DNA from: Saccharicrinis sp.
GTDB lineage: Bacteria; Bacteroidota; Bacteroidia; Bacteroidales; Marinilabiliaceae
Reading direction: 5' to 3'
Assembly: GCA_024635585.1 (NCBI GenBank)
Contig: JAGXIP010000263.1
Span: 1-39,761, forward strand
Length of the DNA stretch: 39,761 nt
In this document: in pieces, positions 17,386 to 26,697 of the stretch
Layout: every line of letters starts with the position of its first letter
Numbering within the stretch: the first letter of the stretch is position 1
Notes under the pieces: generated by a model
What the model was told of the DNA's origin: nothing
What the model saw: the letters and a program-made list of their open reading frames with translations, nothing else
The model's database searches: none
Translations under genes and position numbers: made by a program

Positions 17386-20300
17386 ATGATATCAGAAGGA
17401 ATAGAGTTTCTGGAAATTTTAATAGAGGTTCATAAAGGACAACTTGCTCACGAAGATAAATATCCTAAGATGCGTTCATTGCTTGAAAGGGTTTGTAAAG
17501 ATTTGACATCTAAGGAAAATATTCAGTTTTCTAATCTTTTTTCCCGACTTAATTACGTCTGTGATAACACCAAACTTGATAAGCGTAAAACATATCAGAT
17601 TAATTCTTTTAGGATTAATGCAAATAAGGTGCTCCATAATGATTACTCCCCATCCGTAGATGAATATCTTCAAGATCTAAAGGCTTTATCTAATGCAATA
17701 AGCCACTTTTATAGTGTACCTATACCTGATGAATTAAAAGCTGAATTGCCAAAAGTGGATTATTTTAAACCTAAAGAGAGACAAGGCAGGAAGCATGATA
17801 GGATAAGAGTGGAAGTGACCGCAACCGACTCTGAGTATATATATGCTTATGATGAGGATAACTCAACAGAGGAACCAATTAAAATAAAACATCACATAGC
17901 TGGTATTAACGAAGAATTTAACCAAACAGTTGCTGAACTATGGAAAGGCTGTCAGCTAAATCTTCTTGATGTCACAATAGATGAACTTGGCGTGTATTTA
18001 CCGGATTTAATTGTATTAGAACCCGATTATTTAATAGATATTAGTTCACTATCAGAGTGTTTTAAAGAATACAGTAAACATCCACTAAATTATGTCCAAA
18101 ATAAATTTGAGGCACTTGCAAATACTAAACACATCTTATTGGGGAATGCTGCCAATTTATTCCTGGACGAATTCGTGAACGAAAAACCTACCAATCCTGT
18201 GACATATGCGGAAGCAATGAAGAAATCCTTCAAATCAGCACCTTTCGAATTTTCAACTTGTGCAGAATTAGATACGAACTTTTTTCAAAATGCTCAAAAT
18301 CAATTTTTAAACATAAAAAATGTTGTAAATAATGTCTTCCCAGCTAAAGAGATTGATAGAGAAAATGGAATCATAGAGCCAAGTTTTATATGTGAGCAGT
18401 TAGGTTTACAAGGCAGACTCGACTTTTTGCAAGTAAAAACAAATTCAGGTAAACAATTTGTAATTGAGCTAAAATCAGGTAGAGCCCCAAATCCAGAAGA
18501 AAATTTCGGATTAGTAGGAATCAATCATGAGACACAAGCATTCCTATATCAAATTGTAATTCAAAAAGTTTTGGGAGTTAAATTTAGCAATGAATTTCAA
18601 ACCTTTATTCTTTATTCAAAGTATTCAGATCCTTCAGCAAATTTACGTCTCTCAAAAGCCTATATGGCAGCTATTAAAGAAATAATAAACATACGAAATT
18701 TAATCGTTGCTAATGAAAAGCGCATTGCAAGCGATAAGACAAATTCTCAGACAAGAACCATCATTAACAATATTGAACCAACTACCTTGATAAATAGAAG
18801 AATTAACAATCAATATTTTATAGACACATACATAATTCCGCAAATAAACTATTTCAAGTCATTTTTTCACTTTTCAAGTGAACTTGAACTTGAGTACTTC
18901 CATAGTTTTTATAATTTTATTTCAAAAGAACACTTTATTTCTAAGCTGGGTGACACCGAACATGACAGCGGCAGAGGAATTTCATCTCTGTGGTTATCCT
19001 CACTTGAAGAGAAGATTGATGCCGGTGAAATTTTAACCAACTTGACTATTATTGAGAACCTGACTGAAAAAGAAAATCCAACACTAACATTTGCAATTCC
19101 TGAGAATAAGCATGCCTTTTTACATAATTTCAGGCAGGGTGATATTATTATTTTACACGAGTGCAACAATCCCGAAGACAATGTAACCAACAAACAAATT
19201 TTTAAAGGCTCCATTGAAACTATTTCTCCTAAAGAAATTAAAGTTCGTATTCGTTATAAACAGCGAAATCAAGATGTTTTGCCCCTTGCAAGTAAGTATG
19301 TCATTCAGCATGATTTTTTGGATTCTTCCTATAACTCCATGTATAGGGGTTTATATGCTTTTCTACAAGCCAATCAAAATCGAAAAGATCTTCTACTAAA
19401 TCAGCGTCAGCCAACACAAGACCCTTCAAATTATATGGAGAATATATACGATTCTGTAGAAATACAGCAAATTGTATATAAAGCAAAAATAGCCAATGAT
19501 TATTTTCTTCTAGTCGGTCCTCCTGGTACTGGTAAAACTTCAATTGCTTTGAAATCAATGGTGGAAGAATTTTATTGTGAACCTGCGAATAATATTTTAT
19601 TGCTGTCATATACAAACAGGGCGGTGGATGAAATTTGCGATACACTAAATAAGCTCAGAGGTAATCCAAAATTTATAAGAATTGGTTCCGAACTCTCATG
19701 TGACCATGTTCATCGTAGTAAATTATTGGAGGAGGTTATAAAAAACTGCGATAACAGGGAACAAGTTAGAGCCAAAATTGAAGAGCACCGTATATTTGTT
19801 GGTACAGTCTCGTCCATCTCATCTAAAACAGAATTGTTCAAGTTAAAGTCCTTTCAAGTTGCTATAATTGATGAAGCTTCCCAAATCCTTGAGCCAAGTT
19901 TACTGGGAATACTATCTGCAAAAAACTCATATGGTGGCAATGCAATAGCCAAATTCATTTTAATTGGAGATCATAAGCAATTACCCGCAGTTGTTCTTCA
20001 AAAAGAGATAGACTCGAAAGTTAGCATTCCTGTTTTAAATAAAATTGGACTATATGACAAAAGAAATTCTTTATTTGAAAGACTATATAATCTGCATAAG
20101 TCAGATAAAAATTCTTTAGTTTGGTCTATGTTATATAAGCAAGGTAGGATGCATCCTGCAATTGCTTTATTTCCTAATTATTCATTCTATAACAGTCAAT
20201 TACAGATTGTTCCAACTAATCACCAACTGTCTGCCTTGGAGTATACAAAATTTGATGATAAAAATGCAATACAAAAGTTAATTTTTACTAAGCGTATTGC

Positions 20301-21705
20301 ATTTATGCCTTCTGAAAAACATAAGTCAGACAAGTCAAATAAGACAAACACTCACGAAGCCAGAATGGTTAGGGAGCTTTTGAAGAATATTTTTGAGTTA
20401 TACACTACTAATTCCTTGAATTTCAAAGCTGAAGAAACTGTTGGTATAATTACCCCTTTCAGAAACCAAATTGCTTTAATTAAAAAGGAAATATTCAGCC
20501 TTGAAATTCCCGAGTTGAATAACGTTACAGTTGATACTGTTGAACGTTTCCAAGGTTCCCAAAGGGACATTATTATATATTCTTTCAGTATTAATGAATT
20601 CTATCAATTAGACTTTCTGGCTGGTAGTAGCATTATGGATGAAGGTCAGATAATTGATCGTAAATTGAATGTTGCAATAACAAGAGCAAAAAAGCAGTTA
20701 TTTGTCGTCGGAAATCCTATAATTCTTTCAAATAATTTAACTTACTATCGTTTAATCGAATTTATTCGGTCAAAATCAGGTTATATCAAAACAACACCTG
20801 ACGATTTTATTAGCAGGAATTTCGATATCCAGGAACATGAAGCAGAAACTGCTATTGGTATTCATACACATGAACCGTCTCAGGCATTTGTAAACAATTT
20901 TGAGCGTATAGTCATACAAACAATCAGGGAAAACCCTAAAACAAATTTTCCTAACCAAATTTGCGGATTCGATCATGATTACAATCGTATGAATGTAATT
21001 CAATATGGAAGAGCAAATTTCGATCAAGGCACATTAGATCATTCTCCTTTAGAAAAAGTTTACCTCTATTGTTACTACAATATGCGGAAGCACTATTTTA
21101 GTTCACTAGCGATCTTCAAAAGCTTTAGCGAATATTTCAAAAAAGCATTTGATGATTGTAATAATAGAATAATGTTTATAGATTTTGGCTGTGGACCATT
21201 AACTGCTGGTCTGGCATTTAACCAAGAGTTCTCGAATGAAACTAACTTTCATCTCAGTTATGCTGGTATTGATATTTCATCTGCAATGTTAACAGTGGCA
21301 GAATCATTCTCAAAAACAAATTTATTTAGTGATGATGCAAGGTTTCTTTTTGTTAGAAATCTAAACGAAATCCCTGATGATTATTGGGATAGTTTATTTG
21401 TTTTATCCAATACCGTGATTTTGAATTTCTCATACATTTTTGGCAATCTCTCGAAAGATGATGTAGAAAGATTGGCGGTTCAAATCAATAGAATGCTAGA
21501 CAAATTTCCGTTAAATAAATATATTGCAATATACCAAAATTCTGCAATCGAAAAAAGGAATAGAACGTATTGTATTTTTAAGAAACTAGTTCCTAGATTG
21601 GTAAGTATTACACAGCCCAAAATCGAAACTGTGGGATATCGCAATTCTATTGCAAGTAATTACGATAAGAGTGAAGACGTTTTCTTTGAATTATTGGAAG
21701 TGTAA
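17386..21705 (+). CDS. Nuclease-SF1 helicase-methyltransferase fusion protein
   Basis: A 1439-residue protein. Residues 1-120 are a helical N-terminal domain. Residues about 290-400 form a RecB/Cas4-type nuclease: QGRLDFL (D346), FVIELKSG (E361, K363) and the ETQAFLYQ helix (Q384, Y388). An SF1 (Dna2/Upf1-like) helicase follows: GPPGTGKT (711-718), SYTNRAVDE (741-749), IIDEASQ (827-833), GDHKQLPAVV (861-870), ITPFRNQ (1022-1028), ERFQGSQRD (1053-1061) and NVAITRAKKQ (1095-1104). The C-terminal 190 residues hold a class I SAM-binding site, FIDFGCGPLTAG (1264-1275) and YAGIDISSAML (1292-1302). No NPPY-type DNA methylase motif is seen. The stop overlaps the DUF1848 start by one base. Confidence 0.85.
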   Translation: MISEGIEFLEILIEVHKGQLAHEDKYPKMRSLLERVCKDLTSKENIQFSNLFSRLNYVCDNTKLDKRKTYQINSFRINANKVLHNDYSPSVDEYLQDLKALSNAISHFYSVPIPDELKAELPKVDYFKPKERQGRKHDRIRVEVTATDSEYIYAYDEDNSTEEPIKIKHHIAGINEEFNQTVAELWKGCQLNLLDVTIDELGVYLPDLIVLEPDYLIDISSLSECFKEYSKHPLNYVQNKFEALANTKHILLGNAANLFLDEFVNEKPTNPVTYAEAMKKSFKSAPFEFSTCAELDTNFFQNAQNQFLNIKNVVNNVFPAKEIDRENGIIEPSFICEQLGLQGRLDFLQVKTNSGKQFVIELKSGRAPNPEENFGLVGINHETQAFLYQIVIQKVLGVKFSNEFQTFILYSKYSDPSANLRLSKAYMAAIKEIINIRNLIVANEKRIASDKTNSQTRTIINNIEPTTLINRRINNQYFIDTYIIPQINYFKSFFHFSSELELEYFHSFYNFISKEHFISKLGDTEHDSGRGISSLWLSSLEEKIDAGEILTNLTIIENLTEKENPTLTFAIPENKHAFLHNFRQGDIIILHECNNPEDNVTNKQIFKGSIETISPKEIKVRIRYKQRNQDVLPLASKYVIQHDFLDSSYNSMYRGLYAFLQANQNRKDLLLNQRQPTQDPSNYMENIYDSVEIQQIVYKAKIANDYFLLVGPPGTGKTSIALKSMVEEFYCEPANNILLLSYTNRAVDEICDTLNKLRGNPKFIRIGSELSCDHVHRSKLLEEVIKNCDNREQVRAKIEEHRIFVGTVSSISSKTELFKLKSFQVAIIDEASQILEPSLLGILSAKNSYGGNAIAKFILIGDHKQLPAVVLQKEIDSKVSIPVLNKIGLYDKRNSLFERLYNLHKSDKNSLVWSMLYKQGRMHPAIALFPNYSFYNSQLQIVPTNHQLSALEYTKFDDKNAIQKLIFTKRIAFMPSEKHKSDKSNKTNTHEARMVRELLKNIFELYTTNSLNFKAEETVGIITPFRNQIALIKKEIFSLEIPELNNVTVDTVERFQGSQRDIIIYSFSINEFYQLDFLAGSSIMDEGQIIDRKLNVAITRAKKQLFVVGNPIILSNNLTYYRLIEFIRSKSGYIKTTPDDFISRNFDIQEHEAETAIGIHTHEPSQAFVNNFERIVIQTIRENPKTNFPNQICGFDHDYNRMNVIQYGRANFDQGTLDHSPLEKVYLYCYYNMRKHYFSSLAIFKSFSEYFKKAFDDCNNRIMFIDFGCGPLTAGLAFNQEFSNETNFHLSYAGIDISSAMLTVAESFSKTNLFSDDARFLFVRNLNEIPDDYWDSLFVLSNTVILNFSYIFGNLSKDDVERLAVQINRMLDKFPLNKYIAIYQNSAIEKRNRTYCIFKKLVPRLVSITQPKIETVGYRNSIASNYDKSEDVFFELLEV

Positions 21706-22574
21706 TGACAACCTTATTCCCAGCTGAGGATTATGAGCAATTTGTCATTCTAAGTGCATCCAGAATGACAGATATGCCTAAGTATTATCCAATCGGTCTA
21801 ATTAAAGAGGTAAGAAGGAGATTAGAAAATGGGCAGAAAATACACACCTTAGTGTTATGGACTAAACATCCCATGTCATTACTAACACAACCGTTAATGG
21901 ACTTTTTGATTGAGTTAAAGTCAATAGGAATCCAAATATATCTTCAATTAACTATTACAGGTTTAGGAGGGATACCTTTGGGTTTTGGAAAGAATAATTT
22001 TCAGAATTTCTTTGAGCCAAACTCGCCCAAATACGAAGATTCTTTAACGCTCATCCCCGACATTATAAACCTGCTAGGTAAGCCGGAAAGAATTAGAATT
22101 CGTATTGATCCAATTATCAGAATAATAGATTCAGAGCGGAATATCTTATCAAATTTAAATTATTTGCCGATCATTATCGAAAAAGCTAATCAATTTGGAG
22201 TATCAACTTTTAGTTTCAGTTTTCTTGAAAGATCTGCCCATAAAAAAGTGGATAAGCGTTTCGCAGATATAAGTATTACGATATTCCCGCCAGATGATTT
22301 TGAAAGAAATAGGTTTATTAAATGGGTAGCGGAAATTGAAAAAAAGCATGATGTTCAAATTTTCTCATGCTGTGTTCCTGGCATGAAAATTTCTAAATGT
22401 ATCGATGGTTCTTTTTTAGAAAGCATTCATGATCATCAGATTCCAACTGAACATAAACAACCCTACAAGAGAAAATTGTGCGGTTGCACTGAATCAATCG
22501 ACATAGGAGGTTGGCCACCTAAAAGATGTTTTACTGGATGCTTATATTGTTATTCAAATCCAGTTATTTCCTAA
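21705..22574 (+). CDS. DUF1848 protein, C-terminal radical-SAM-like Cys cluster
   Basis: A 289-residue DUF1848 protein. Family blocks are visible: ILSASRMTD (15-23), LVLWTKHP (49-56), LTITGLG (82-88) and RIDPIIR (133-139). The C-terminus has C259, C261, a DIGGW segment, then C275-x3-C279-x2-C282-Y. CxxxCxxC is the 4Fe-4S motif that radical SAM enzymes carry at the N-terminus. Its C-terminal position suggests a circularly permuted radical SAM-like barrel, as the Pfam description of this family also hints (from memory). The start overlaps the upstream stop (TAATG), so the two proteins are coupled. The reaction is unknown. Confidence 0.8.
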   Translation: MTTLFPAEDYEQFVILSASRMTDMPKYYPIGLIKEVRRRLENGQKIHTLVLWTKHPMSLLTQPLMDFLIELKSIGIQIYLQLTITGLGGIPLGFGKNNFQNFFEPNSPKYEDSLTLIPDIINLLGKPERIRIRIDPIIRIIDSERNILSNLNYLPIIIEKANQFGVSTFSFSFLERSAHKKVDKRFADISITIFPPDDFERNRFIKWVAEIEKKHDVQIFSCCVPGMKISKCIDGSFLESIHDHQIPTEHKQPYKRKLCGCTESIDIGGWPPKRCFTGCLYCYSNPVIS

Positions 22575-22670: not shown

Positions 22671-24899
22671 TTACGTTTTTAAAATTTCCATTATTTTTTG
22701 CTCAACTTTCAAAAAATTAATATTTCCTTCTATTTTACAAGTGCAAGATTTTATGACTTCTACGTTTTCGTTATTTTTTTCAACGTTTGAAATAAATTCT
22801 TTTTGATTAAGTTTTAGAATTATTTCATCAGGTAAAACTTTCGAATTCATGTCATAGAATTTCAATGAGAATTTATTGTCTGAATAACGAATATCTAATG
22901 CAAAACTGTATTTGCTTTGGTAATTCCATAGGTCAATTACGGCACAAGGTATATAATCGGAAGAATCATAATACCAAGCTCGTTTGAAAGGATAAAATAA
23001 AGATTCTTTGCCTTCTAGTTTTGTTTTATTAAATACATATGACCTCAATTCCGCTCTTTTTCTCCATCCTGATGCAGAACTTCTGGCTAAATCAATGTGA
23101 TTATTCCATTTGTTGATTTGATAATTATTGCAATATTCAATAATTCCATCGTTTTTGATAAATAATGACATCCAATCATTTTCATTTTCTTGAAAACTGT
23201 TGACAATCGTTCGTAAATCGCCCTGTATTGAGTCAATTTTTATTGCATCTAAAAGTTGTTTTAAATAATTGCTTTTTACATCATCATTAAAAACTTTTCG
23301 CCAATTATCCATTTTGGCTCTTAAACTGTTTTCAAATTTACAGAAAGTATAATGACCTGAGATATAAACTAAATAATCGCCAAACGTAAGTAATGCTCTT
23401 TGAAACAGGCAATCATATTTGTCTTGAAATTCCGAACTAAACAACCTGTTTATTTTTTCAGAATAATTTAAGAATTTAACAATATCATAGGCAGTATTGG
23501 TTTTTGCAAAATTCAAAATAAAACCAATTTGCCCATTGAAATAAGAATGCTGTTCTATTTTCACTATTGCTTCATTCCATTGATTTGACTTATCATCAAG
23601 TATTAATTTTGCCTTGATTTTTTCTTCTTCGCTCTGTTCTTTCTCAAATAAATCTATTTTAGTATCCGTTTTTGAAAGATAATCATACAAGTCACCAATA
23701 TGACCGCTTAATTCTTTTATAGAACGAACGGCTTTATAAAATAATTCAGGGTCTTCAATACGAGTATTATTTATCAAGTTTGTGCAAACTCGCATCCATT
23801 TATCAAATAAGTTCTGATTTGAAACATCTAATCTGCCGTTTTGAATAAAAAATTGCGAAAGAGCATAGAAGCGTGTCCGTTCCCAATAATTTGGATTGTC
23901 AGTTAATATGCTTTCAAAATATTTATCATCATCATGAAATGAAGTAAGACAATCCAGTATTTTTGAAAGTTGTTGTAATGTGTTGAAATTCTTAGAATAT
24001 ACATTTTTATACTCAACGAATATATTGAATTTGTCTTTAAATAATCGGTCAATATCATTCTTCTCAGCGATAAAGTTCAATGTGGAATTTTTTAGAAAAT
24101 TCAAATATCTTCTATCAACCTCCTTCAGATTGATAGTATCATTGTCTTTTTCATACTTCCAAAAAATATCCAACCATTCATTGTCCAACTTTGACTTATT
24201 GTCGTAGTCAAGCAGAACTGAAAAGTTTGCTTTGAAATTTTCAAAATCAGTAAGTGGTTTTCCGCGGGAGTTCATTTTAACGTAAATTTCATCATCTAAC
24301 TTGAATTGCTTTAACGGTAAAAAATGAAAAATAACAGGACAATTTTTATCGCAAAACAAATTAAACAAATCTTCATTTGGCTGTATAAATTTCCTTTGAA
24401 TAACATCAAGCATATTTAACATTGCCTGTATAGTCGGGTCGTTTCTCCACGATAGAAAAAACCATTTTGAATTAACAATTTGTTGGCTGATTTTTATATC
24501 ATTTTGATAGACAATGCTTTCTGTTACTAATTTCATGCAAAAATCTTCTGAACTCGGACGAGTTTCGTAAGTGAATTTTGATAAAATATTTTTTTTATCG
24601 TCTGTCAAACTGCGAAGTGACAAGAACCAATGTGTCAAAAATAAAGTCGTTAGCCGTTGCTGTCCGTCCAAAGGGATTAATTGTTGGTTATCGACCTTGC
24701 CATAAACGAAATGCAGATTAATTTTTATTTTATTTGTTAATGAATTGGCAATATCACCTACAATATCACATTCCTCTTTCTTTAAGTCAGAATATAATCT
24801 ATCTTGCACATAATCCCTTTGAATAGCAGGAATTTCTATTGTGTATTTGGAAATCAAATTCCAAAAAGTAAACTCTTTATTTTCCGGTTCCATCATCAT
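22671..24899 (-). CDS. DUF262 protein, second subunit of GmrSD-like pair
   Basis: A 742-residue DUF262 (ParB-like/GmrS) protein. IPAIQRDYVQ (23-32), DGQQRLTT (78-85) and KMNSRGKPLTDFE (208-220) are the conserved nucleotide-binding blocks. DUF262 domains bind and hydrolyse NTPs in type IV restriction of modified phage DNA. I see no DUF1524/HNH motif in its long C-terminal region (about 260-742), so it may depend on its partner for cutting. Its start (ATGATGATG) overlaps the end of the upstream DUF262-DUF1524 gene by 23 bp. Family call is firm; the two-subunit idea is inference. Confidence 0.8.
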   Translation of the reverse strand: MMMEPENKEFTFWNLISKYTIEIPAIQRDYVQDRLYSDLKKEECDIVGDIANSLTNKIKINLHFVYGKVDNQQLIPLDGQQRLTTLFLTHWFLSLRSLTDDKKNILSKFTYETRPSSEDFCMKLVTESIVYQNDIKISQQIVNSKWFFLSWRNDPTIQAMLNMLDVIQRKFIQPNEDLFNLFCDKNCPVIFHFLPLKQFKLDDEIYVKMNSRGKPLTDFENFKANFSVLLDYDNKSKLDNEWLDIFWKYEKDNDTINLKEVDRRYLNFLKNSTLNFIAEKNDIDRLFKDKFNIFVEYKNVYSKNFNTLQQLSKILDCLTSFHDDDKYFESILTDNPNYWERTRFYALSQFFIQNGRLDVSNQNLFDKWMRVCTNLINNTRIEDPELFYKAVRSIKELSGHIGDLYDYLSKTDTKIDLFEKEQSEEEKIKAKLILDDKSNQWNEAIVKIEQHSYFNGQIGFILNFAKTNTAYDIVKFLNYSEKINRLFSSEFQDKYDCLFQRALLTFGDYLVYISGHYTFCKFENSLRAKMDNWRKVFNDDVKSNYLKQLLDAIKIDSIQGDLRTIVNSFQENENDWMSLFIKNDGIIEYCNNYQINKWNNHIDLARSSASGWRKRAELRSYVFNKTKLEGKESLFYPFKRAWYYDSSDYIPCAVIDLWNYQSKYSFALDIRYSDNKFSLKFYDMNSKVLPDEIILKLNQKEFISNVEKNNENVEVIKSCTCKIEGNINFLKVEQKIMEILKT

Positions 24900-26697
24900 T
24901 AATTATAAGATAATCATTTAATATTGTTTTCATTTCTACAAGATACGAATCCATATCTTTTTTGTCCCATTTTAAATTCTGTTCTACATTTTTAGAGTAG
25001 TATTTCAGAAAAACATTTTTGGTGCAAATTGGGATAAACGAACCTTTTTCGTCTAGTTCTTTTATTTTATCCCGTTTCCTGTGAAATGGTGCATTGTTCA
25101 AACTTGAATTGTCTGATGGTGTAAGCAATGCAAGATTTTTAATAGAATGAATGGTTGAACCTGCATCTGACGATAAATCAAATATTTCCTGCTGTAAATT
25201 AACAAACCGATGTTGATCAATTTCAGATTGTGCTAATAGTGCAGTTATTTCATCTAATAATCCCTTGTGTTTACAAATGAAAGAATCTTGTTTTTGATCT
25301 TCTAATAATTGTCTTTTGTCTTTCTCTTTTGTGAGTTCTTCGGATTGTTGGGCGTGAATATGCTCTAAACTCCAACATGAAATTCTATCAAAAGAAAATT
25401 TGACGAACCCGCTATTCTTTGTTACAATAACATTGAAAAGCAACAGAATATTCTTTGCTTTATCTTTATTGTCATCATAACCAATTTCATTGAAATCGAC
25501 TTTCCCAAAATGGGATTTTATTTTTTCTTTTAGTTTCTCAATAAATTGAGGTTTTGAGTTTGTTTCGGCTAGTTTTTTTATATTTTCAATGCTATTTTCA
25601 ACACCGCCAACTTGTAATAGAAATCCAATGAGATGAAAATAGGTGTATTTATTTTCTTCGTCTTTACTACTATACCATTCTACAAAAGTTCGATAATAAG
25701 TTTTGATTTCGTCCCAAAGGAAATCTCGCGTATTATTGAATTTGCTATCATCATAAATCTTTGTATTTTTTGTAATTAATTCGTTAAAAATATAAAATGC
25801 CCGCAACCTATTTTCTTTTTTGATTTTAAATTGAATATTGCTTTCGTATTTTGTAGCAACCAAATCAAAAATAAATTCAATATGGTTTTGATACAATTTG
25901 GGAGGGTTGATAAAACGCCAAAAACCGGTCTTCCTTAATGTGTTTTCAATATCGTCCCATTCGTAACCGATTTTGATTTGGTGTTTCTTTTTGTCTTTAT
26001 CACTGTCAGTCAAATAGAAAATTGCTTTAATAAGTTCAGCATTTGTTAAGTCAATTTTGCCCTGATTATATTTTGCAAATGTTACATTTGGCTTCTCGTC
26101 AGTGTCATTGTTAGAATTAATTGGATACCAAATAAAACGGATATTGTTTGCTTCATCATCGCCTTTTTCATTGGGTTCGTAAGAGATTAAAGTATCTACA
26201 AATTTACCAATCGTAGGTTTATTCTCTTCAAACCACTTTTTTATGGTTAAAAAAGCATCACTCATTCGGTAAAAATCAACATTTGATTTAATGATTTCAG
26301 TTGTTGAAGTAATATCTTGTAAGAATTCCTTACTACTGCAATCTTCTTTTTCTCTTGTTTCGTATTCGATAGAAAATAAATCAGGAGGGATTCCATAATC
26401 ACCCTTTGTTGATAGATACGATAAAAGAATTAAAATGGAAGTGAGTCGTTGTTGACCATCAACAACCTCCCATTTGTCAACAGTTCTTTTTCGTGTTACT
26501 ATCAAAGGTTGCATGCAATAAAATTCACCTACACCTATTTTTCTGCTGTTTACCTTCTTTTGAAATTCGAGAATATCATTTAATAAATCGAGGATTTGCT
26601 GTTCTTCCCATCGATACCCACGCTGATAACTTGGAATATAAAAATGCTTTCCGAATAATTCTTTGATAGACTTTAATTCTATTTTATTTTCAGGCAT
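24877..26697 (-). CDS. DUF262-DUF1524 type IV restriction protein (GmrSD-like)
   Basis: A 606-residue protein with both halves of GmrSD. The DUF262 part has YIPSYQRGYRW (20-30) and EVVDGQQRLTS (77-87), then NQGKIDLTNAELIKA (211-225). The C-terminal DUF1524 His-Me nuclease part has WSLEHIHAQ (442-450) and the later NLALLTPSDNSSLNN and FHRKRDKI segments typical of this fold. GmrSD enzymes cut glucosylated or other modified phage DNA. It is the first gene of a two-gene minus-strand unit. An AT-rich leader of about 57 bp precedes it and probably carries the promoter. Assignment is strong; the target modification is unknown. Confidence 0.85.
   Translation of the reverse strand: MPENKIELKSIKELFGKHFYIPSYQRGYRWEEQQILDLLNDILEFQKKVNSRKIGVGEFYCMQPLIVTRKRTVDKWEVVDGQQRLTSILILLSYLSTKGDYGIPPDLFSIEYETREKEDCSSKEFLQDITSTTEIIKSNVDFYRMSDAFLTIKKWFEENKPTIGKFVDTLISYEPNEKGDDEANNIRFIWYPINSNNDTDEKPNVTFAKYNQGKIDLTNAELIKAIFYLTDSDKDKKKHQIKIGYEWDDIENTLRKTGFWRFINPPKLYQNHIEFIFDLVATKYESNIQFKIKKENRLRAFYIFNELITKNTKIYDDSKFNNTRDFLWDEIKTYYRTFVEWYSSKDEENKYTYFHLIGFLLQVGGVENSIENIKKLAETNSKPQFIEKLKEKIKSHFGKVDFNEIGYDDNKDKAKNILLLFNVIVTKNSGFVKFSFDRISCWSLEHIHAQQSEELTKEKDKRQLLEDQKQDSFICKHKGLLDEITALLAQSEIDQHRFVNLQQEIFDLSSDAGSTIHSIKNLALLTPSDNSSLNNAPFHRKRDKIKELDEKGSFIPICTKNVFLKYYSKNVEQNLKWDKKDMDSYLVEMKTILNDYLIINDDGTGK

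Follow-up and report, generated by a model that had tools for sequence, protein, structure and literature searches.

A methyltransferase with an interchangeable AlkB-like or DUF1848 partner gene, fused in Saccharicrinis sp. to a Dna2-like nuclease-helicase

A 39,761-nucleotide contig of Saccharicrinis sp. (JAGXIP010000263.1; herein the window) encodes one polypeptide that joins a RecB/Cas4-like nuclease, a superfamily 1 (SF1) Dna2-like helicase and a class I S-adenosylmethionine (SAM) methyltransferase (MTase), with a gene for a DUF1848 protein directly behind it (Table 1). A preliminary description had proposed this domain composition, and Pfam and PADLOC matches bear it out; the one-base overlap that it reported is confirmed by reading the sequence directly, the TAA of the fused gene and the ATG of the DUF1848 gene forming TAATG. 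The C-terminal CxxxCxxC motif claimed for the DUF1848 protein is likewise present (C275-x3-C279-x2-C282). Comparison with other genomes (loci numbered L, genomes G) shows where the working module lies: it consists of the MTase and its immediate downstream neighbor, an interchangeable AlkB or DUF1848 partner, and is carried on different platforms.

Table 1. Features of the fused gene and its partner in the window (aa, amino acids)
Feature	Position	Strand	Details
Fused nuclease-helicase-methyltransferase	17386..21705	+	1439 aa; orthologs L050, L051, L130
PD-(D/E)XK (RecB/Cas4-like) nuclease	18394..18717	+	aa 337-444; D346, E361, K363
SF1 Dna2/Upf1-like helicase	19453..20784	+	aa 690-1133; K717, D829, E830, R1054, R1100
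Class I SAM methyltransferase domain	20881..21702	+	aa 1166-1439; PADLOC C3a159 family
MTase motif I, DFGCGP	21181..21198	+	aa 1266-1271
NFSY	21424..21435	+	aa 1347-1350
TAATG junction, stop and start sharing one base	21703..21707	+	stop 21703-21705, start 21705-21707
DUF1848 protein, MTase partner	21705..22574	+	289 aa
C-terminal CxxxCxxC (C275, C279, C282)	22527..22550	+	invariant in 15/15 diverse DUF1848

The nuclease is recognized by Pfam (PDDEXK_1, 1.3e-4 at aa 338-395) and PADLOC (Cas4-like, 5.5e-6) and the helicase as SF1 (AAA_12, 1e-36; AAA_11, 8.3e-25), and a three-ortholog profile aligns with solved DNA2 structures across both domains at 2.3e-34. With the N-terminal 680 aa as query, the core was found in 27 of the 395 genomes searched from the class of the window, taken as Bacteroidia; three plasmid-collection records and two orthologs that MTase searches brought up (G602/L050 and G218/L130) complete a set of 32 cores, in all of which the nuclease and helicase residues of Table 1 are identical. 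Dna2/Cas4 iron-sulfur (Fe-S) nucleases hold their cluster by four conserved cysteines; no such set was found in the 32 cores, where Cys occurs in at least half of the sequences at two columns only (aa 225 and aa 751, each 27/32). The MTase-less form is the usual one (28/32), the MTase being fused in the window, L050, L051 and L130. In our reading, the window protein is a DNA-processing nuclease-helicase with an added MTase that probably acts on nucleic acid. The fused label requires three changes on the core tree and four on a second tree, which omits eight distant cores kept in the first, whereas the MTase domains of the fusions group in a single clade (support 84/91) with long branches; this points to either a single gain with several losses or domain transfer. 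The N-terminal extension of one ortholog (L050:3453-4100) matches PADLOC PDC-M16A N-termini (1.7e-28).

The MTase domain is weakly matched in Pfam (Methyltransf_31, 0.0026, below the cut-off) and clearly in PADLOC (C3a159 "methyl transferase", 1.9e-16), a family that is by its name a CRISPR type III accessory. Motif I (D-x-GCGP) is kept in 12 of 13 aligned members, being lost in L051; N-x-(S/C)-Y, whose NFSY form in the window we take to be a possible motif IV, is kept in 11, being altered in L051 and in L159, which retains motif I. The structure model predicts a Rossmann MTase, with a mean predicted local distance difference test (pLDDT) score of only 65, and the 50 matches listed by Foldseek are almost all methyltransferases (probability 0.99-1; TM 0.29-0.45 of the query), so the proposed C-terminal SAM domain stands. 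Trm9-type structures exist in the PDB collection searched, and none was listed among the five matches, down to E 5, of the MTase profile. Weak matches in G626, G021, G210, G343, G200, G212, G353 and G1013 were dropped as other MTases or noise. Scans of viral contigs with the MTase found no relatives.

The gene behind the MTase follows a consistent pattern. In L050 (fused protein of 1645 aa) a DUF1848 gene, its product 22% identical to that of the window, starts 9 bp after the fused gene, and in L130 (1472 aa) an AlkB-like dioxygenase gene lies directly downstream with the one-base overlap seen in the window. The MTase of L051 is degenerate, with both motif I and NFSY gone, and a search of its genome, which is 99% complete, turned up no AlkB and no DUF1848. 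A partner therefore directly follows all three intact fused MTases (DUF1848 in the window and L050, AlkB in L130) and none of the 29 other cores (Fisher p 2e-4, uncorrected for relatedness). Around the 28 MTase-less cores, profile searches of the fetched stretches (at least 3.8 kb upstream and at least 2.1 kb downstream) found neither DUF1848 nor AlkB, and a unit of nuclease-helicase plus DUF1848 was rejected on this count.

The pattern extends beyond the fusions. Strong MTase members make up 15 rows, with motif I intact in 14 (3 fused, 11 standalone); AlkB and/or DUF1848 lies directly downstream in 13 of these 14, and in 7 of 8 once the window, L035 (found via its DUF1848) and near copies among L154/L155/L156 and L057/L058/L059 are omitted. 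The partner of standalone MTases is mostly AlkB. As controls, the AlkB profile recovers 7/7 AlkB loci found by Pfam and the DUF1848 profile 27/29 DUF1848 loci, two being missed by the open reading frame (ORF) and profile search. Because MTase-DUF1848 and MTase-AlkB neighborhoods recur in other genomes, the adjacency goes beyond chance; the DUF1848 pairing first described in the window is found again in L050. The earlier suggestion that nucleic acid is chemically marked or repaired as well as degraded fits these data, but its unit has to be redrawn as MTase plus DUF1848 or AlkB, with the nuclease-helicase as one of several platforms.

Among those platforms, a reverse transcriptase (RT) matching PADLOC retron-type models lies near MTase-AlkB in pAQ5 (L057) and L035, and type III-B Cmr genes lie near the pair in L058/L059. 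L035, L131, L154 and L155/L156 share the order UvrD-like helicase, ADP-ribosyltransferase protein, MTase (~490 aa) and AlkB, with a glycohydrolase domain in that ADP-ribosylation context in L035 and L131 only. The gene run at L035:1666-9876, several of its genes overlapping or nearly so, comprises a retron-type RT, a VWA-like gene (by eye), the UvrD-like helicase, an ADP-ribosyltransferase/glycohydrolase fusion, MTase, AlkB and DUF1848. In the window, a Pfam scan of 17 of the 38 listed ORFs, both flanks included, gave no RVT match, no Cas/Cmr genes (CRISPR arrays were not searched for) and no kinase or phospholipase D (PLD) in the fused protein or the other ORFs scanned. Two overlapping GmrSD_N genes occupy 22671-26697 on the minus strand, only one of them with a GmrSD_C match.

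The AlkB partners belong with ALKBH8, their top PDB match (3thp, 6e-39); the best chain named plain AlkB scores 1.4e-8. The H, D and H of HxD...H...R and both R are present in all 11 aligned AlkB sequences (eight MTase partners, two from viral contigs, and L060), and the RRVQHYGY region in 10, being missing in L060. The viral-contig genes (L161:7007-7603 and L162:7007-7546) encode ALKBH8-like AlkB proteins from the subfamily of the MTase partners, L162 standing near replicative-looking genes (by eye); no member of the MTase family was found near either in the fetched stretch. It is possible that they serve in counter-defense. In a study of bacterial ALKBH8-type enzymes (PMC4051686), these are reported to remove DNA lesions in vitro, the tRNA wobble site is unaltered in an Agrobacterium mutant, and the physiological substrate is described as still to be revealed. 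The Roseobacter ALKBH8 of that study comes from the species of our hit H20 and may be the same protein.

The DUF1848 protein of the window is matched by Pfam (3.4e-31) and by PADLOC RTasDUF1848 (3.7e-78). All 15 diverse members compared share seven invariant cysteines, three in CxxxCxxC and four at aa 222, 232, 259 and 261; the latter four could hold a second cluster. With a structure model of pLDDT 88 and predicted TM score (pTM) 0.88, Foldseek returns many TIM barrels, among them the radical SAM enzymes HydE, PqqE and NifB (TM 0.35-0.40), and Radical_SAM Pfam matches fall below the cut-off (E 0.025-0.06). In a weak test, sequences were rearranged to begin with the Cys segment; this gave a longer Radical_SAM match for two of seven members (L045 and L050) and not for the window, L044, L052, L053 or L061; PDB searches with one rearranged sequence and with the natural profile gave nothing relevant. 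A permuted radical SAM enzyme is plausible, and spore photoproduct lyase is a precedent for a radical SAM enzyme working on DNA (PMC8307549). The window DUF1848 matches 58 of 395 phylum genomes and the MTase profile 10; DUF1848 is thus common without this MTase and, like AlkB, looks to be an enzyme of general use that was recruited to this setting.

Other DUF1848 loci are varied. L005, the only DUF1848 found in viral contigs, has a DUF1848 and MTase identical to those of L042; this Heliophilum locus lies near a recombinase-like gene and restriction-modification (R-M)-like genes (by eye) and is possibly mobile. In a Clostridia metagenome-assembled genome (L037:520-4251), DUF1848 comes directly after a UG25-type RT whose N-terminal region is weakly MTase-like; a plasmid search with the UG25-like RT listed matches confined to the RT part. 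A small UvrD-like helicase lies near DUF1848 at L054:4084-8573, L056:824-5413 and L055:7476-13453, the last also encoding a 268-aa protein with a weak Methyltransf_31 match (5.9e-4). DUF1848 operons also hold another MTase-like family, with members of 307 aa (L054/L056) and 292 aa (L060); it was not counted, its GGGxxPE-type pattern being seen by eye only; its sole PDB match is an uncharacterized protein, and a viral scan found nothing. At L052:6421-11234 the gene of a 1250-aa Sel1/leucine-rich repeat (LRR) protein overlaps DUF1848 by 4 bp; this protein, too, was not counted as an MTase member (similarity weak, 4.5e-4).

Several known systems share parts of this arrangement. Picosynechococcus plasmid MTases match that of the window at 32-33% identity and have AlkB directly downstream, but they are standalone, without a nuclease-helicase fusion, stand near Cmr genes or a retron-type RT, and have AlkB instead of DUF1848. 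PADLOC places RTasDUF1848 with the UG25/UG35 RTs of defense-associated RT (DRT) systems, and the DUF1848 protein of the window fits the same family model; the DRT-side loci are L037, with its RT, and L042. The scanned window ORFs hold no RT, and the MTases of L037 and L042 resemble that of the window mainly in the SAM motif region only. The SF1 helicase region resembles Mokosh MkoA (1.7e-55; likewise MkoC) and PLuB helicases (PLuB_AAA, 2.5e-57). Mokosh has a partner kinase (type I) or a fused PLD nuclease (type II), whereas the window has a PD-(D/E)XK nuclease and an MTase. DNA2 aligns over profile positions 336-1101 but differs in its four-cysteine set and in having no MTase or partner gene. 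ALKBH8, also paired with an MTase, differs in that here the genes are separate, the MTase does not retrieve Trm9-type structures, the neighbors are of defense type and DUF1848 can take the AlkB slot. DarTG is a base writer with its eraser, acting via ADP-ribosylation; the likeness to the methylation proposed here is one of logic, no homology being claimed. Our literature search, which most subscription papers lay outside, found no paper naming DUF1848 and no title or abstract describing an MTase-AlkB/DUF1848 module, which may nevertheless be in print.

What is observed, namely the domains, the conserved catalytic residues, the overlapping genes, their recurrence and the AlkB/DUF1848 exchange at one slot, leads us to favor tentatively, at slightly less than even confidence, a reading in which the partner removes a base lesion or mark left by the MTase. 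The helicase-nuclease would load on and unwind foreign or damaged DNA (or RNA), and the tethered MTase would methylate exposed bases, leaving a replication-blocking lesion or mark. The downstream partner would strip that methyl group wherever it sits on host nucleic acid, making the activity survivable; in most relatives this is the ALKBH8-type Fe(II)/2-oxoglutarate dioxygenase, and in the window DUF1848, probably an Fe-S/radical-type enzyme, may have the equivalent effect. Such a module could have an antiphage role. AlkB and DUF1848 are unrelated, and their exchange in one overlapping position after the same MTase suggests that both lead the MTase product to a shared end, of which methyl removal may be the simplest, a proposal that we hold a little short of evenly. 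L051, the one case with MTase motifs and partner both missing, speaks indirectly for MTase toxicity without a partner, and L158 against it. A wider proposal, that of a methylation-lesion immunity module, is rather unlikely: the MTase would inflict alkylation-type lesions on an invader while a cognate eraser, either O2-dependent (ALKBH8-type) or O2-independent (Fe-S DUF1848), shields the host. DUF1848 would then be a radical-type nucleic-acid demethylase, the cassette would ride on nuclease-helicases, on retrons, on type III CRISPR and perhaps on RTs of the UG type, and the eraser alone would serve some phages as counter-defense.

Several points weigh against a writer and its eraser. L158 keeps motif I intact, and a search of its genome turned up no AlkB and no DUF1848, the DUF1848 absence being the weaker because the DUF1848 search matched no control genome; in L157 the MTase and AlkB frames are broken, which may reflect decay or sequencing error. 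DUF1848 has other settings, since no MTase family member was found near it in the fetched stretches, some of them short, of ten loci (L036, L038-L041, L043-L045, L053 and L061; other MTases were not sought), and its radical SAM nature is unproven. A strict aerobe/anaerobe swap of AlkB and DUF1848 was rejected, as the window genome, with DUF1848, has four COX1 matches; COX1 is present in the AlkB genomes G218 and G012, with none in the DUF1848 genome G602 (86% complete). In PMC4051686, the Roseobacter enzyme removed 3-methylcytosine and etheno adducts, not 1-methyladenine, in vitro with little effect in vivo, none of the ALKBH8s rescued RNA phage treated with methyl methanesulfonate (MMS), and the authors prefer RNA modification for canonical bacterial ALKBH8s.

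That preference counts in favor of the main rival, two-step hypermodification, to which we give a real but minor chance. AlkB would hydroxylate the MTase product, with DUF1848 as an alternative second or an earlier radical step (Elp3 performs an earlier radical step in the ALKBH8 pathway), and the end would be a new RNA or DNA mark rather than a plain base. The much stronger match of the AlkB partners to ALKBH8 than to plain AlkB agrees with this, as do the co-occurrence of MTase, AlkB and DUF1848 in L035 and the tolerance of an MTase with no partner found, as in L158; eukaryotic ALKBH8 itself holds MTase and AlkB within one protein (PMC4051686). Against it, no Trm9-type structure was listed for the MTase profile, a shared outcome explains two unrelated enzymes at one slot more easily, and viral-contig AlkB without the MTase family fits less well. 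Housekeeping repair, with the nuclease-helicase as a repair enzyme and MTase, DUF1848 and AlkB as clustered alkylation-damage genes, is decidedly unlikely: AlkB is a repair family, most cores lack the MTase and at least one stands beside ordinary genes (tatC), but the core is patchy across the class, the MTase-AlkB pair elsewhere adjoins type III-B CRISPR genes or an RT of retron type, and further genes of defense type are present in the window. Single-chain R-M enzymes combine nuclease, helicase and MTase domains, and the window polypeptide resembles them in domain content; yet R-M proper, in which the nuclease-helicase would degrade DNA lacking the self mark set by the MTase and DUF1848 would elaborate that mark, is very improbable, for the MTase is missing from most cores, the DUF1848 slot can be taken by AlkB, a dealkylase family, and no target-recognition domain is among the Pfam matches.

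Should a writer and its eraser prove the right description, alkylation would stand beside ADP-ribosylation as a way of damaging bases in immunity that brings an antidote of its own. The exchange of AlkB and DUF1848 behind one MTase gives both enzymes a testable partner, a shared candidate substrate in the MTase product and a likely setting in antiphage defense.
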